A stretch of 39,612 nt of DNA, taken from NCBI GenBank assembly GCA_026392155.1, contig JAPLCP010000147.1, forward strand, positions 1-39,612, written 5' to 3'. The DNA is from Armatimonadota bacterium. GTDB lineage: Bacteria; Armatimonadota; Armatimonadia; Armatimonadales; Armatimonadaceae. The position numbers and the translations under genes were made by a program. Shown piece after piece: positions 10,804-39,612 of this stretch; the first letter of the stretch is position 1, and every line of letters starts with the position of its first letter. The notes below the pieces were generated by a model. It made no database searches, was not told the DNA's origin, and was given only the letters and a program-made list of their open reading frames with translations.

Positions 10804-10849
10804 TCCCCCTCCTCCCAGGATTGGGAGGAGGGGCTAGGGGAGGAGGGTC
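10804..10849. repeat. Palindromic repeat, family A (copy A1)
   Basis: CCCCTCCTCCCA (10806-10817), loop GGAT, TGGGAGGAGGGG (10822-10833): a perfect 12-bp stem, followed by CTAGGGGAGGAGGG. It sits in the 54-bp gap between the DUF1800 stop and the DUF1501 start. The same core recurs at 22139, 38774 and 38870. Confidence 0.7.
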
Positions 10850-13954: not shown

Positions 13955-14006
13955 AGGTTGCCGAAGAGCTTGTCAGCGCTAGGTTGCCGAAGAGCTTGTC
14001 AGCGCT
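13955..14006. repeat. Exact 26-bp tandem duplication
   Basis: The 26 bases beginning AGGTTGCCGAAGAGC at 13955-13980 are repeated exactly at 13981-14006. If the duplication is collapsed, the surrounding bases can be read as a short protein-like string (QVAEELVSAPFERDRG), so this may be a decayed gene fragment. Not conclusive. Confidence 0.8.
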
Positions 14007-14194: not shown

Positions 14195-14223
14195 TTGACA
14201 AATTTTCAATATACCGTTACACT
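14195..14223 (+). promoter_or_regulatory. Sigma-70-like promoter of pilin cassette 1
   Basis: TTGACA (14195-14200), a 17-nt spacer and TACACT (14218-14223). The -35 and spacer are almost identical in cassette 2. An AT-rich dyad, TACAATATTGTA (14141-14152), lies about 43 bp upstream. The leader to the ATG is about 200 nt and contains no other recognised element. Confidence 0.75.
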
Positions 14224-14432
14224 GTAAGTTGCAGTTAAGAGATGGGAAAAATTAAAGTTTAATAATCTTTAGTCAAAAGCCGCATTTCATGTTTGTGATT
14301 CATCACAGGAGACACATATGTTTCTGTCTGATTTGAAAGAAAACTTTTTTGGGTGTCTTCGTGCATCCGAAATTGCTTTTTTCTTTTCCAGCAAAGTTGT
14401 TTGTGGAAAAAATATACTCTGAGAGGGTAGTC

Positions 14433-15278
14433 ATGTCTTATCGAAAATTCAGCCTAGGTAAAACACGCCAGGCATTTACACTTATCGAACTCTTAGTCGT
14501 CATCGCGATCATCGCGATTCTCGCCGCCATTCTCTTCCCTGTCTTTGCACAGGCTCGCGAGAAAGCTCGTCAGGCCTCCTGTATCTCCAACTTCAAGCAA
14601 GGTGCGCTTGGGATCATGATGTACATGCAAGACTACGATGAAGCATTTCCCGTAATGACTGCTGAGTACGGTGTCTGGACACCACAACCGAACTGGGCAT
14701 GGGGGCAGATGGTCTTTCCCTATATCAAGAACTGGCAGATTCACCGCTGTCCCTCTAATGGAACCGCTACTGAGGCTGTGGTCTCTGAAGGTGCAACCAA
14801 TCCTTTAACTAGAGAGTTTAACTATGCACTTCACTCCGGGCTCGGCTTCAACTACATGCACCTGACGCCTTTCACCACGGCTGTTGGTCCTGCTGGAGGA
14901 AATCTCTTCAGCCCGCAGACAAATGCCGCTGTTGGACAGCCGGCAGCTACCATTATGCTTGCTGATTCGATCTGGGATAAAGCAGGCACCGCTCCAGCAG
15001 GTGGGGGTAACTGGTTTATTGAAGCACCTTGTTTTCAAAATTCAGGAACGGCTTACTGGTTTGGTGGCTGGCGGATTGATACCGCTACCGATTGGTTGCA
15101 ATTTGGTGGTACACATCCGTTTCACCAACAGAGTGTGACAGTTGCTTATGTTGATGGACATGTTAAAGCAACTCGTATTGGGGATTTGGCTAAGGGATGT
15201 AATGTCCGTACCAAAACTCTCACGGATCCTACTGCGGCAAATGGGATCACAAATGAGTATCTTTGGGATCGTCTGTAG
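14433..15278 (+). CDS. DUF1559 prepilin-like protein, cassette 1
   Basis: 281 residues from the ATG at 14433, which has GAGAGGG 5 nt before. [14 protein letters not shown] is the basic leader; F15 starts the pilin helix ([20 protein letters not shown]), followed by [16 protein letters not shown]. The globular part includes [10 protein letters not shown] and ends with an H-X9-DG motif ([19 protein letters not shown]), as in DUF1559. Longer starts (GTG 14349) are unlikely because the leader region upstream carries the promoter. The first ~35 codons are nearly identical to the gene at 15965, but the rest diverges strongly. Probably exported and assembled by a type II/IV-pilus-like system. Confidence 0.92.
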
Positions 15279-15535: not shown

Positions 15536-15567
15536 GCGGCGCAGAGCTCCGGCTCTGCGCCGCTTTT
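15536..15567 (+). terminator. Rho-independent terminator, cassette 1
   Basis: GCGGCGCAGAGC, loop TCCG, GCTCTGCGCCGC (12-bp perfect stem), then TTTT. Confidence 0.88.
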
Positions 15568-15730: not shown

Positions 15731-15759
15731 TTGACAAATTTTCAATATCACGTTAGACT
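15731..15759 (+). promoter_or_regulatory. Sigma-70-like promoter of pilin cassette 2
   Basis: TTGACA (15731-15736), 17-nt spacer, TAGACT (15754-15759). Same architecture and spacer sequence as cassette 1. Confidence 0.75.
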
Positions 15760-15964
15760 GTCGCATCTCTAAGAGGTGGGCAACATTAAAGCTTAAAAAC
15801 CTTTAGTCAAAAGCCGCACTTCATGTTTGTTATTTATCACGGGAGACACATGCGTTTACGCTGGTTCGAAAGAGAAACAGTTTTCGGGTGTCGTCGTGCG
15901 TCCTACTACTTTTTCTTTTCCAGCAAAGTTGTTTGTGAAAAAAATATACTCCGAGAGGGTAGTC

Positions 15965-16816
15965 ATGTCTTATCGAAAATTAAGCCTAGGTAAAACACGC
16001 CAGGCATTTACACTTATCGAACTCTTAGTCGTCATCGCGATCATCGCGATTCTCGCCGCCATTCTCTTCCCTGTCTTTGCACAGGCTCGTGCCAAGGCCC
16101 GCTCCATCACCTGTGTGAGCAACGTCAAGCAAGCCGCTCTTGGTGTGCTGATGTACGTCCAGGACTACGATGAAATGCTACCGCAGCTGGACAACGACCG
16201 CACCGCTGGTCATACACCGGACTGGGGCACCCCGGGCAATATCCAGACCTGGGGCAACCACATGTTCTTGGGAGTTGTTCAGCCCTACCTGAAGAACTGG
16301 GACTTCACCGTCTGCCCTGAAGCCGGCAAGACCAACTGGAAGATCGCGATTCCTGATGGTTCCGTTGCAGGTGCCCCCTACGTCCAAGCCATGGACGACG
16401 CCGGTTACTACGCCAGCTCCTTCTCCAAGATCGCCGTGAATATTCTGCTTGTCGAGTGGGGAGCCCGTGGATCTACGGCAGCGATCGCTCGCCCTGCGGA
16501 GACCACCATGCTCGTGGCCGACTCTGTCTGGGACAACACGGGTGTCGCGATTTCACAGGCAGTGGGTAACACCGGTGTCTGGCCGGAGAACGAAGCGGGT
16601 GGCTGTGTTGGTCTCGGAGGACAGGGCTGGACCTGGTACCTGCACTCCAACACCAAGGGTCGTGGCGGAAGCCGCGCGGCAGTGGAGTCGGGTCGCGCCA
16701 ATGTTGCCTTCGTCGATGGGCACGTAAAATCCATGGATCGCAACAATCTGGAGCGCTGTGACTTTAGCCCCGCCGCCAATGCACGAATCTTCACGTACTG
16801 GGAGTACCGCTTCTAG
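15965..16816 (+). CDS. DUF1559 prepilin-like protein, cassette 2
   Basis: 283 residues from the ATG at 15965, with GAGAGGG upstream. The leader and pilin helix match cassette 1 ([14 protein letters not shown], then [15 protein letters not shown]). The globular region (MYVQDYDEMLPQLD...) is different. The final motif is RANVAFVDGHVKSMD, but the usual His of H-X9-DG is replaced by Glu. It is more GC-rich than the first copy after the shared part, so one globular domain may have been exchanged, or the two have different origins. Separated from the lipoprotein gene by a single base, which suggests coupled translation. Confidence 0.92.
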   Translation: MSYRKLSLGKTRQAFTLIELLVVIAIIAILAAILFPVFAQARAKARSITCVSNVKQAALGVLMYVQDYDEMLPQLDNDRTAGHTPDWGTPGNIQTWGNHMFLGVVQPYLKNWDFTVCPEAGKTNWKIAIPDGSVAGAPYVQAMDDAGYYASSFSKIAVNILLVEWGARGSTAAIARPAETTMLVADSVWDNTGVAISQAVGNTGVWPENEAGGCVGLGGQGWTWYLHSNTKGRGGSRAAVESGRANVAFVDGHVKSMDRNNLERCDFSPAANARIFTYWEYRF

Positions 16817-20675: not shown

Positions 20676-22649
20676 ATGCAAGAGCGTTGGACGTTGGCGG
20701 AGTCGGGGATTGCGTGGGAGATCTCGGGGAGCGAGGGGCTTCCCCACGACGATCATGTGGAGCTGAGTGGGCGGCGGGTGAGTGCGATTATCCGCTACGG
20801 AGTGGATGACAAGCGCCGCTTGATCTTGAGCCGGGAAGTCATCTGGCCCACCCTTCGGCTCAAGCGCGATGATGTACGGGGCTACCTGCGGCGCACCTGG
20901 GGCAATGAGGTCATCCCCCCGATTCGCATTGAGGGCATCCCGCTCGTCCCGGGCCCCGTCCGCGAGGTGCGACTCTGGGAGGGACGGCTGACCATCACCC
21001 ACGGCCCGCTCGATGGGATTATCGTCCAGCGCCATCTCTTCCCCTGCGAAGACGAGCCTGCACTTTTAGAGCGCTGGAGCGTGATCAACTTCAGCGATGC
21101 CCCGGTTGGGCTGGAGTGTGTCACCGAAGAGGACACCGAGACCGTGGCCTGCTACGATGGCGATGTGCTGGTGAGTACTAAGATTGTCGAGGGGCCATCG
21201 CTTCTGGTGCGTCCCGGTGAGTTTGGCAATATCACCTTGGCCTTTGTCGCGCACAAGAAAAACGCGACTCAGAAAGCCCTCAATGTCCCCGACGAAGCCA
21301 TTTTTCGCGAGCGGCGCTGGAAGGCTCTGAGCGAGAAACTGGTGCTGACGACCCCCGATCCCGTGCTCAACCGGGCGTTTGAGTTTGCCAAGTGGCGCGC
21401 CGCGGAGAGCCTCTTTCACACCAAGATGGGGCTGGTGCACTCGCCGGGTGGTGGGCGCTACTACGGCGGCGTCTGGGCCAATGACCAAGCGGAGTACGCC
21501 AATCCTCTCTTTGGCTATCTGGGCGACTCTCTCAGCCACGAGGCCAGCGTCAACTGCTACGAAAAGTTCGCCACCGAGCTTACCTCACGCTTTCGCCCCT
21601 TGCCCTCGTCGTTTGAGGTTGAGGGAGATGTGATCTGGCGCAACTGCGGCGACCGGGGTGATGCCGCCATGATCGCGTCGGGGGCGAGCCGCTACGCGCT
21701 GGCACAAGGCGATAAAAAAATCGCCGAAAAGCTCTGGCCGCTGATTGTCTGGTGCCTGGAGTTCTGCCACCGCAAGACCGACGAGCGCGGCATTGTCCTC
21801 TCCGACACCGATGAGCTGGAGGGGCGTTTTCCCACCGGCGAGGCAAATCTCTCGACATCGTGCCTCGCCTACGATGGCTACAAACGTGCCGCCGATCTCG
21901 CCCTTGAGCTGGGTCACACGGAGCTGGCAGAGCAGTACAGCACTGCCGCCGCTGCGCTGGAGCTCGCCATTGAGAAGCACTTCGGAGCAGAAGTTGAGGG
22001 CTTCACGACCTACCGCTACTACGAAGCCAACACGACCCTGCGGGCATGGATTTGCTTGCCGCTTGCCCTCCTCCCCGGCCCTCCTCCCAACCCTGCGGAG
22101 GCAGGATTAGAGGAGGGAGAGAATACCGCTTCAGGCTCCCCCCTCCTCCTCCCCCCGGCCCCCTCCTCCCAGGGTTGGGAGGAGGGGGCCGGGGCACGTC
22201 GCGACGGCACGATTGCCGCACTGCTCTCGCCACAGCTCTGGACGGAAGATGGGCTGGCGACCGAGTCCGGCGATACGGTTTTCTGGGATCGGGCGACCCT
22301 CTATGCCCTGCGCGGGCTCTTTGTGGCCGGGGCCACGGAAACGGCGCTGGAGAAACTCACCGCCTACACCCACCGCCGCCTGTTAGGGGAGCACGTCCCC
22401 TACGCCGTCGAAGCGCACCCTGAGGGCAGTCAGGCGCATCTCTCTGCCGAGAGCGCCCTCTACTGCCGCATTCTCACCGAAGGGCTCTTTGGCATTGTCC
22501 CGCGCGGCCTAGAGCGCTTCGATGTCACACCCCGCCTCCCCGACGCCTGGAGTGAGATGTCGCTGACACTAGAGGGCTTTGGCGGACACTGGGAGATTCA
22601 GGTTCGCCGTGTTGCAGGGGAAGTGAAGACCGACGTGCGGCGTATCTGA
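20676..22649 (+). CDS. Six-hairpin glycoside-hydrolase-like protein with repeat insertion
   Basis: 657 residues. The N-terminal third is beta-sandwich-like (HVELSGRRVSAIIRYGV, EVRLWEGRLTITHGPL). The middle part is an (alpha/alpha)6-type catalytic domain as in glycogen debranching/amylo-alpha-1,6-glucosidase-like or rhamnosidase-like families: FAKWRAAESLFH, GGVWANDQAEYANPLFGYLGD, DTDELEGRFPTGEANLS and the final GDTVFWDRATLYALRGLF. Candidate acidic catalytic residues are in WANDQAEY and DTDELEG; the exact family is uncertain. Residues about 467-507 (PGPPPNPAEAGLEEG..., PAPSSQGWEEGAG) are encoded by two palindromic repeats (22075-22196) and look like an in-frame insertion between two helices. 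No signal peptide. Confidence 0.75.
   Translation: MQERWTLAESGIAWEISGSEGLPHDDHVELSGRRVSAIIRYGVDDKRRLILSREVIWPTLRLKRDDVRGYLRRTWGNEVIPPIRIEGIPLVPGPVREVRLWEGRLTITHGPLDGIIVQRHLFPCEDEPALLERWSVINFSDAPVGLECVTEEDTETVACYDGDVLVSTKIVEGPSLLVRPGEFGNITLAFVAHKKNATQKALNVPDEAIFRERRWKALSEKLVLTTPDPVLNRAFEFAKWRAAESLFHTKMGLVHSPGGGRYYGGVWANDQAEYANPLFGYLGDSLSHEASVNCYEKFATELTSRFRPLPSSFEVEGDVIWRNCGDRGDAAMIASGASRYALAQGDKKIAEKLWPLIVWCLEFCHRKTDERGIVLSDTDELEGRFPTGEANLSTSCLAYDGYKRAADLALELGHTELAEQYSTAAAALELAIEKHFGAEVEGFTTYRYYEANTTLRAWICLPLALLPGPPPNPAEAGLEEGENTASGSPLLLPPAPSSQGWEEGAGARRDGTIAALLSPQLWTEDGLATESGDTVFWDRATLYALRGLFVAGATETALEKLTAYTHRRLLGEHVPYAVEAHPEGSQAHLSAESALYCRILTEGLFGIVPRGLERFDVTPRLPDAWSEMSLTLEGFGGHWEIQVRRVAGEVKTDVRRI
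22075..22119. repeat. Palindromic repeat, family A (copy A2a)
   Basis: CCTCCTCCCAACCCTGCGGAGGCAGGATT-like core, the GGAGGCAGGATT sub-type also seen at 38774. Inside the glycosidase-like gene; it keeps the reading frame. Confidence 0.6.
22139..22196. repeat. Palindromic repeat, family A (copy A2b)
   Basis: A 19-bp perfect stem: 22153-22171 with 22176-22194 and loop GGGT. The core CCTCCTCCCA/TGGGAGGAGG is that of A1. Encodes PSSQGWEEGAG within the glycosidase-like protein. Confidence 0.7.
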
Positions 22650-38771: not shown

Positions 38772-39612
38772 GACCCTCCTCCCCGTCCCTCCTCCCAATC
38801 CTGGGAGGCAGGATTGGGAGAGGGGGAGATTGAGTGAGGTTGGGGGTTCTGGCTCTCCTCCTCCTGCGCCCCTCCTTTCCCTTCCTCCCAGGATTGGGAG
38901 GAGGGGCTGGGGGAGGAGGGATTCGGGGAGGAGGGCAGCGCAGCAGCCAAGCACTTCTCCGGTGTGGCGTCCTCGCGGGTAAACTCCGCCGAGAACTGGC
39001 CCTGGCGCATGACCAGCACCCGATCTGCCACGCCGAGCACTTCGGGCAAGTCCGACGACACCATTACCACGCCCACCCCTCGCTCCGATAAATCATACAA
39101 AATGTCATAGATCTCACGCTTCGCTCCCACATCAATCCCGCGGGTTGGCTCATCTAAAAGCAGCACTTTGACGTCCTCGCTCAGCCAGCGCCCCAGAATC
39201 GCCTTCTGCTGGTTCCCTCCTGAAAGCAGGCCGATCTGCTGCTCTAAGTTCGGGGTCTTGACCCGCATCGCCTCGACTTGCTGGGTGGCGTTCTCGCGCT
39301 CCGCAGGCTCGTTGATCCAGAAGCCCAGCGTGGAGAAGCGCCGCCGTGCCGAGAGGTTGATATTCTCCGCCACCGAGCGCACCGGGACAATGCCCTCTTT
39401 CTTGCGATCCTCGGGGCAGAGGCAGATGCCGTTTTTGATGCTCTGCGCCGGGTTGGCGTAGATCTCTTTGAGCAGCTCTGTGCGCCCCGCCCCGACGAGG
39501 CCAAAGATCCCCAATATCTCGCCGCCAGATACTTTCAGGCCATGGCTGTCGAGGACGATACGTCCTATCGTTCGTGGTCGCCAGCCGTAGATATCGGCGA
39601 TATCGCGGCCTA
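38768..39612 (-). CDS. araG: L-arabinose-type ABC ATPase, C-terminal part
   Basis: Runs from the right window edge to the stop at 38768; the N-terminus is outside. The visible part begins GRDIADIYGWRPR, then the second nucleotide-binding domain: Walker A GLVGAGRTEL, signature LSGGNQQKAILGRWL, Walker B LLLDEPTRGIDVGAKREIY and the switch VSSDLPEV. This is the second half of a twin-domain AraG/RbsA-type ATPase. The family ends near ...LAAAL, but here an extra 55 residues follow, encoded by two palindromic repeats at 38774-38935 (PSSPNPSSPSPSSQSWEEG..., PASQDWEEGRGGGS). araH follows with a 4-nt overlap. Confidence 0.93.
   Translation of the reverse strand, partial: GRDIADIYGWRPRTIGRIVLDSHGLKVSGGEILGIFGLVGAGRTELLKEIYANPAQSIKNGICLCPEDRKKEGIVPVRSVAENINLSARRRFSTLGFWINEPAERENATQQVEAMRVKTPNLEQQIGLLSGGNQQKAILGRWLSEDVKVLLLDEPTRGIDVGAKREIYDILYDLSERGVGVVMVSSDLPEVLGVADRVLVMRQGQFSAEFTREDATPEKCLAAALPSSPNPSSPSPSSQSWEEGKGGAQEEESQNPQPHSISPSPNPASQDWEEGRGGGS
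38774..38826. repeat. Palindromic repeat, family A (copy A3)
   Basis: CCTCCTCCC...TCCTCCCAATCCTGGGAGGCAGGATTGGGAG. Shares the GGAGGCAGGATT sub-type with 22075. In frame at the end of araG; on that strand it reads PASQDWEEG. Confidence 0.65.
38870..38935. repeat. Palindromic repeat, family A (copy A4)
   Basis: CTTCCTCCCAGGATTGGGAGGAGGGG followed by CTGGGGGAGGAGGG, nearly identical to A1 at 10804. In frame in araG, reading PSSQSWEEG. Confidence 0.7.

Follow-up and report, generated by a model that had tools for sequence, protein, structure and literature searches.

The closest described counterparts of the repeat family reported here, family A, are the intrastrand triplex motif of E. coli and other Proteobacteria, known as TM-ECO, PIT element or BoxC (Holder et al. 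2015, PMC4666352, and Hoyne & Maher as cited there), and the Rickettsia palindromic elements (RPE). Triplex folding of TM-ECO has been proven in vitro by CD and NMR, and in MG1655 the motif is reported to be always intergenic (PMC4666352). RPE, in the account of Ogata et al. given in PMC2229807, are 105–146 bp long and lie in frame in phylogenetically conserved proteins, in 19 reading frames, where surface loops tolerate them. ERIC/RU-1, the 107-bp Correia elements and the YPAL MITEs resemble family A in being stop-free and found fused in frame, but are 100–200 bp long, bear terminal inverted repeats and are not described as having a mirror third arm (PMC2229807). REP/REPIN sequences with their RAYT genes share with family A short dispersed palindromes, inverted pairs and a frequent position next to stop codons; unlike them, family A has no linked RAYT and carries a triplex-type third arm.

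The stretch analysed here (39,612 nt, hereafter the window) belongs to a 4.77-Mb Armatimonadota genome in 228 contigs, which was compared with a 6.3-Mb genome of the same genus (G001, hereafter the congener); about 1.1 Mb of the former and 1.2 Mb of the latter were read and compared. On the forward strand of the window, positions 20676–22649 encode a 657-residue protein whose frame runs intact through a 129-nt, 43-codon insert (22068–22196, forward strand; LLPGPPPNPAEAGLEEGENTASGSPLLLPPAPSSQGWEEGAGA). The protein gave no Pfam match and no solved structure by sequence, and the insert none in Rfam. Modelled with AlphaFold2 (mean pLDDT 87), the protein is matched by Foldseek to cellobiose and chitobiose phosphorylases of the GH94 fold (E 5e-18 to cellobiose phosphorylases), so that the term glycosidase-like, used for the host in an earlier sequence-only reading, is right at the level of the fold. 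Aligned with 90 homologous loci of 42–80% identity, some of them overlapping, this GH94-like protein has 42 residues in the loop at the insert site, against 4–13 in all the others, and the insert adds about 38 residues to the enzyme. The same place holds the only segment of the model with pLDDT below 50, residues 469–503, flanked by helices 457–465 and 501–516. The segment is thus missing from the homologues and modelled as a disordered loop, both of which that reading had foreseen, and what the homologues have there is a short turn rather than an equivalent ordered region.

That palindromic repeats sit in frame in this gene, as the sequence-only reading proposed, is borne out by the region 22066–22196, which consists of two inverted C/T-rich palindromic units. 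In the left unit (22066–22118, reverse strand), the arms as read from the letters are a degenerate pyrimidine arm (Y, about 22108–22118), a purine arm (R, 22079–22089) and, beyond a CCG-type loop, a second purine arm (R', 22066–22076). The right unit contains the 19-bp perfect stem noted in that reading at 22153–22194 (CCCCGGCCCCCTCCTCCCA/GGGT/TGGGAGGAGGGGGCCGGGG, GGGT forming the loop) and also matches the complete Y-R-R' pattern on the reverse strand (22142–22185; CCTCCTCCCAACCCTGGGAGGAGGGGGCCGGGGGGAGGAGGAGG). Folding of the insert stretch as single-stranded DNA outperforms 200 of 200 dinucleotide shuffles (z −4.3). The insert is made up of two family A units in tandem; the family is a dispersed, species-amplified repeat.

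Family A is abundant in its own genome, where the 24-mer singled out earlier occurs 32 times, an 18-nt core 83 times exactly, and places within 3 mismatches number 118, with 0 in each reversed control. The congener has about 1 copy, and the complete Y-R-R' pattern, applied strictly, is found 59 times in the own genome, once in the congener and 0 times in 289 other Armatimonadota genomes; in the stretches read there are 77 complete units. The unit can be written C(n)TCCTCCC-A-NNNN-T-GGGAGGAG(n)-CN(G)-G(n)AGGAGGG, with arms CCCCTCCTCCC / GGGAGGAGGGG; the consensus of all 83 exact copies, among which inverted pairs are frequent, is [C(n)]TCCTCCCA-NNNN-TGGGAGGA[G(n)]-CN-[G(n+1)]AGGAGGG, and the 42-mer unit reads CCCCTCCTCCCAGGATTGGGAGGAGGGGCTGGGGGAGGAGGG. 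Some units, and some other families, have a longer second loop. Canonical units of 39, 42 and 45 nt have a length that is a multiple of three and no stop in any of the six frames; as a rule for every copy, a length divisible by three did not hold. An origin of the insert by slippage expansion of C/G-rich codons, in place of insertion of a dispersed element, has next to no probability and was rejected on the existence of the repeat family, since specific 18–24-mers recur 32–83 times genome-wide and 0 times in controls and 13-mers are enriched about 1500-fold. What speaks for such an expansion are duplications at four loci (L164, L167, L168 and L192), where the family A tail plus 6–9 nt of adjoining host sequence is repeated two or three times (for example GGAGGAGGGATTCAC twice); they point to replication slippage, the 3' end looking as though it had slipped in the course of copying.

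Beyond what the sequence-only reading had described, the unit is of the three-arm intrastrand-triplex type rather than a plain palindrome, which the conserved third arm rules out. A pyrimidine arm is followed, each time across a loop, by two purine arms, of which the latter mirrors the former if T may stand opposite A, and family A fits the class II triplex order (Y, R, R'; arms of 6–15 nt, loops of 1–6 nt). A mirror third arm is what an antiparallel purine-motif triplex needs, with the triads G*G.C, A*A.T and T*A.T (PMC4666352). Within family A, mirror and direct repeat are inseparable because the block GGGAGGAGGG is its own mirror, and the mirror rule therefore rests on other families and on covariation. 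In the congener, after the pyrimidine/purine hairpins of several further families comes another purine arm that mirrors the first (GGGAAGAGGGG .. GGGGAGATGG; GAAGGAAGGGGG .. GGGGGATGGATG; GAGAGGGGG .. GGGGGAGTG; GGGGAAGGGAGGGGG .. GGGGGAGGGATG). Scored with T allowed opposite A, a mirror match of at least 9 is reached by 30 of its 35 non-A hairpins, against 0 of 35 in a direct-repeat control and a mean of 2.0 (maximum 5) in 300 permutations with arms taken from other hairpins; in the own genome 11 of 19 non-A hairpins reach it, with 0 in the direct control and a permutation mean of 1.0. As for family A itself, a point against the rule is that only 28 of the 66 hairpins with a perfect stem of at least 9 attain a mirror score of 9 in a strict scan. 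In its favour, covariation is seen between the G-runs of the purine arm and those of the tail (r 0.63, permutation p 5e-5), and in one copy (L181) an extra T.A*T is present in all three arms. Neither simple duplication nor simple inversion can yield a mirror repeat. Across families of different sequence, the mirror rule is kept in the genus, and the covariation of the third arm in unrelated families is sequence evidence that a three-strand symmetry is maintained in the genome. By architecture, family A is a class II intrastrand-triplex type repeat that may fold as a triplex in the cell: the pyrimidine arm would pair with the purine arm as a hairpin, in whose major groove the mirror-image purine tail would lie as third strand, using the same three triads.

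This architecture is that of TM-ECO, with which family A shares the class II order Y-R-R', the mirror third strand, T replacing A in that strand, a CCG-type second loop, a size of 34–45 nt, tens to more than 100 copies per genome with some as inverted pairs, sharp differences in copy number between close relatives and the lack of a known transposase. The sequences differ: arms here are 10–12 nt long, with CCCCTCCTCCC and several other families, and the TM-ECO consensus CCCTCNCCC-N3-6-GGGNGAGGG-N3-GGGNGAGGG does not fit the arms of family A.

Unlike the always intergenic TM-ECO, family A has many in-frame copies in conserved genes, at least 20 in at least 17 genes. They are flanked on both sides by Pfam domains or orthologous sequence, and in 14 of the 17 genes the congener's orthologue aligns on both sides of the copy. 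Besides the GH94-like protein of the window, the hosts are the linker of dihydrolipoamide acyltransferase (E2), an FtsX permease, arginyl-tRNA synthetase, a GH20-like protein, DNA polymerase I, altronate dehydratase, two DUF1549-family proteins, a sugar ABC ATPase, two phosphoesterases, a branching enzyme, HemD, two AAA proteins and one unknown protein; entry into coding sequence in the manner of Rickettsia, suggested earlier for an unrelated lineage, is confirmed in this gene and 16 others. The in-frame copies are distributed 10/8/2 over the three codon phases and use both orientations, encoding PSSQxWEEG, LLPILGGG or PPPNPGRR, from which it follows that family A spreads as DNA; because the canonical units are multiples of three and stop-free in six frames, a loop rich in P, S, G and E is added and the gene is not killed. 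The peptide is probably a by-product that the proteins tolerate in loops, neutral for its hosts. Family A is like RPE in being a dispersed palindrome (129 bp here) that lies in frame in conserved proteins and is missing in homologues; it differs in its unrelated phylum, its G/C-rich composition, a basic unit of 39–45 nt with a mirror third arm, the use of three phases and both orientations, and the sharing of sites between unrelated families. Three repeats lie in the polA frame (L168), namely a copy of family A, a palindrome of the family B type and one more palindrome; in the congener's polA other hairpins occupy the first two of these places and a similar one the third.

Most of the remaining copies are intergenic and frequently abut stop codons. 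In the window, a complete single Y-R-R' copy lies at 10805–10848 on the forward strand between DUF1501 and DUF1800 genes, at a place where the congener has a family-B type hairpin, and a composite of two inverted units with 48-nt arms (79% complementary) at 38774–38914 adjoins the start of a permease gene. REP-like elements elsewhere serve as gene-end or RNA signals, and family A might likewise provide mRNA 3' hairpins, terminators or GGAGG ribosome-binding sites near starts, its intragenic copies being strays. This is unlikely: although 24 of the 77 complete units end within 12 nt of the stop codon of a long convergent frame, against 2% of random positions, and the purine tail GGAGGAGGG is Shine-Dalgarno-like, with some copies just upstream of an ATG, proximity to start codons is at chance level (11 of 77 against 12% at random), both orientations occur, coding copies use all phases, neither a T-run nor a constant distance is seen, and hardly any relatives carry the family.

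A further difference from TM-ECO is that, within the genus, one family follows another at a shared site. The congener's orthologue of the GH94-like gene does not simply lack the insert but holds a different, shorter palindrome (GCCCCCGCAAGCGGGGGAGC) in the same loop. Among 21 family A sites with a readable syntenic site in the congener (a 22nd, whose only counterpart was a paralogue, was excluded), 12 have a C/G-rich hairpin of the congener's own, against 0.9 ± 1.0 in random windows (maximum 4 in 200) and a 13% rate in intergenic windows, these controls being random and intergenic windows and not variable protein loops. Counting perfect stems of at least 9 only, 5 of 21 sites are shared against 0.5 expected, a weaker result in the same direction. 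Shared sites include those in FtsX, the GH20-like protein, altronate dehydratase, PolA and L216 as well as that in the GH94-like protein. The congener's family word is CCCCCGCNAGCGGGGG; a first candidate word, CCCCCGCCAGCGGGGG, had no match in 19 genomes. Family D (CCCTCTTCC..GGAAGAGGG) has 32 copies in the own genome and 39 in the congener, which rules out that the congener's families are wholly lineage-specific, and family E (CCCCTCCCTTC..) has 0 and 47. With D in both species, E confined to the congener and A nearly confined to the own genome, new families are found at places formerly held by older ones. Families thus seem to turn over at fixed sites, the candidate routes being replacement, nesting and repeated use of permissive sites. 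It is conceivable, if doubtful, that the shared sites are merely permissive loops and gaps that several families hit independently in each lineage, with neither replacement nor site homology: coding copies do lie in naturally variable loops and linkers (ArgRS, the E2 linker, the ABC linker) and some sites are empty in the congener (nos. 13 and 74, and the second unit of no. 79), but 12 of 21 is far above the 13% intergenic rate and includes the conserved proteins FtsX, GH20-like, PolA and altronate dehydratase. Equally tentative is the proposal that a new family copies itself onto sites already occupied by a triplex or hairpin, essential genes included, by way of structure and not of sequence homology, so that sites are conserved while families are replaced.

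Overall, the reading that we favour, at a probability of roughly 70%, is that family A is a species-amplified, class II triplex-type family, spread by structure-assisted copying and kept as near neutral. Its units would be non-autonomous DNA that multiplies by structure-assisted copying, or by replacement where a hairpin already exists; ectopic conversion or template switching on single-stranded DNA may be the means, and some insertions would be fresh. Retention would be nearly neutral in loops and intergenic gaps and would not require a benefit to the enzyme. Structure-assisted copying or replacement on single-stranded DNA is the route preferred, which on its own we hold only tentatively, and its main rival is mobilization in trans.

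According to that rival, family A would be a MITE or REPIN moved by a transposase, for example of the hairpin-recognizing Y1/RAYT type, with the triplex symmetry as its recognition mark. No transposase or donor for family A was found; the genome has Y1_Tnp genes, and one of them is bordered by inverted copies of another palindrome, AAGCCCGTGCCGGGCT, in the manner of REPs around RAYTs. Several family A copies moreover form inverted pairs with 48-nt arms (L150, L152, L192, L200, L202 and L205, in addition to the pair at 38774–38914). Within the stretches read, however, Y1 genes have no family A copy nearby: at the Y1 loci L214 and L215 there is none, and the nearest, in L216, is about 3.4 kb off in another gene. 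Neither a constant target site nor a duplication is visible, although target duplications relative to the congener could not be delimited, the host sequence often having been exchanged and not only split, and the sharing of sites with other families would be unexpected under free transposition. Mobilization by a transposase is thus rather unlikely, and RAYT mobilization in particular was set aside, the RAYT-linked palindrome belonging to a different family with no link to family A. That palindrome, AAGCCCGTGCCGGGCT, has 22 copies in the stretches read, and its inverted pair flanks a Y1/RAYT-type transposase gene with a 159-aa frame (L215:10641, 11190; G000 C158).

Other repeats were noticed in the same material. 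A third family, MITE-like and present in both genomes of the genus, has ends CCCCCCTAACCCCCG in inverted pairs about 75–80 nt apart (L150:12452-12527, L208:815-893, L156:17464-17542). The window contains a tandemly duplicated gene with a promoter-like region at 14195–14642 and 15731–16174 (265-nt block, 89% identical), a terminator-like hairpin present twice, at 15536 and 17052, and a perfect 26-bp tandem duplication at 13955–14006. In another genus of the family (G007), CCCCCGCAAGCGGGGG occurs in arrays, often 61 bases apart (C46:1751-2012, C55:65633-66389).

In summary, the repeat in the GH94-like gene confirms and extends what had been read from this locus, as an independent case in which protein-coding palindromes are also class II intrastrand-triplex type repeats. 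Two oddities known separately, the in-frame palindromic repeats of Rickettsia and Wolbachia and the intrastrand-triplex repeats of E. coli and Cyanobacteria, are thereby linked: triplex-type repeats can sit inside the genes for DNA polymerase I, ArgRS and HemD, and genes that work can harbour structured, selfish-looking DNA in lineages far from Rickettsia. With two congeners whose shared sites hold different families, it becomes possible to test how such repeats spread and how proteins gain flexible loops.
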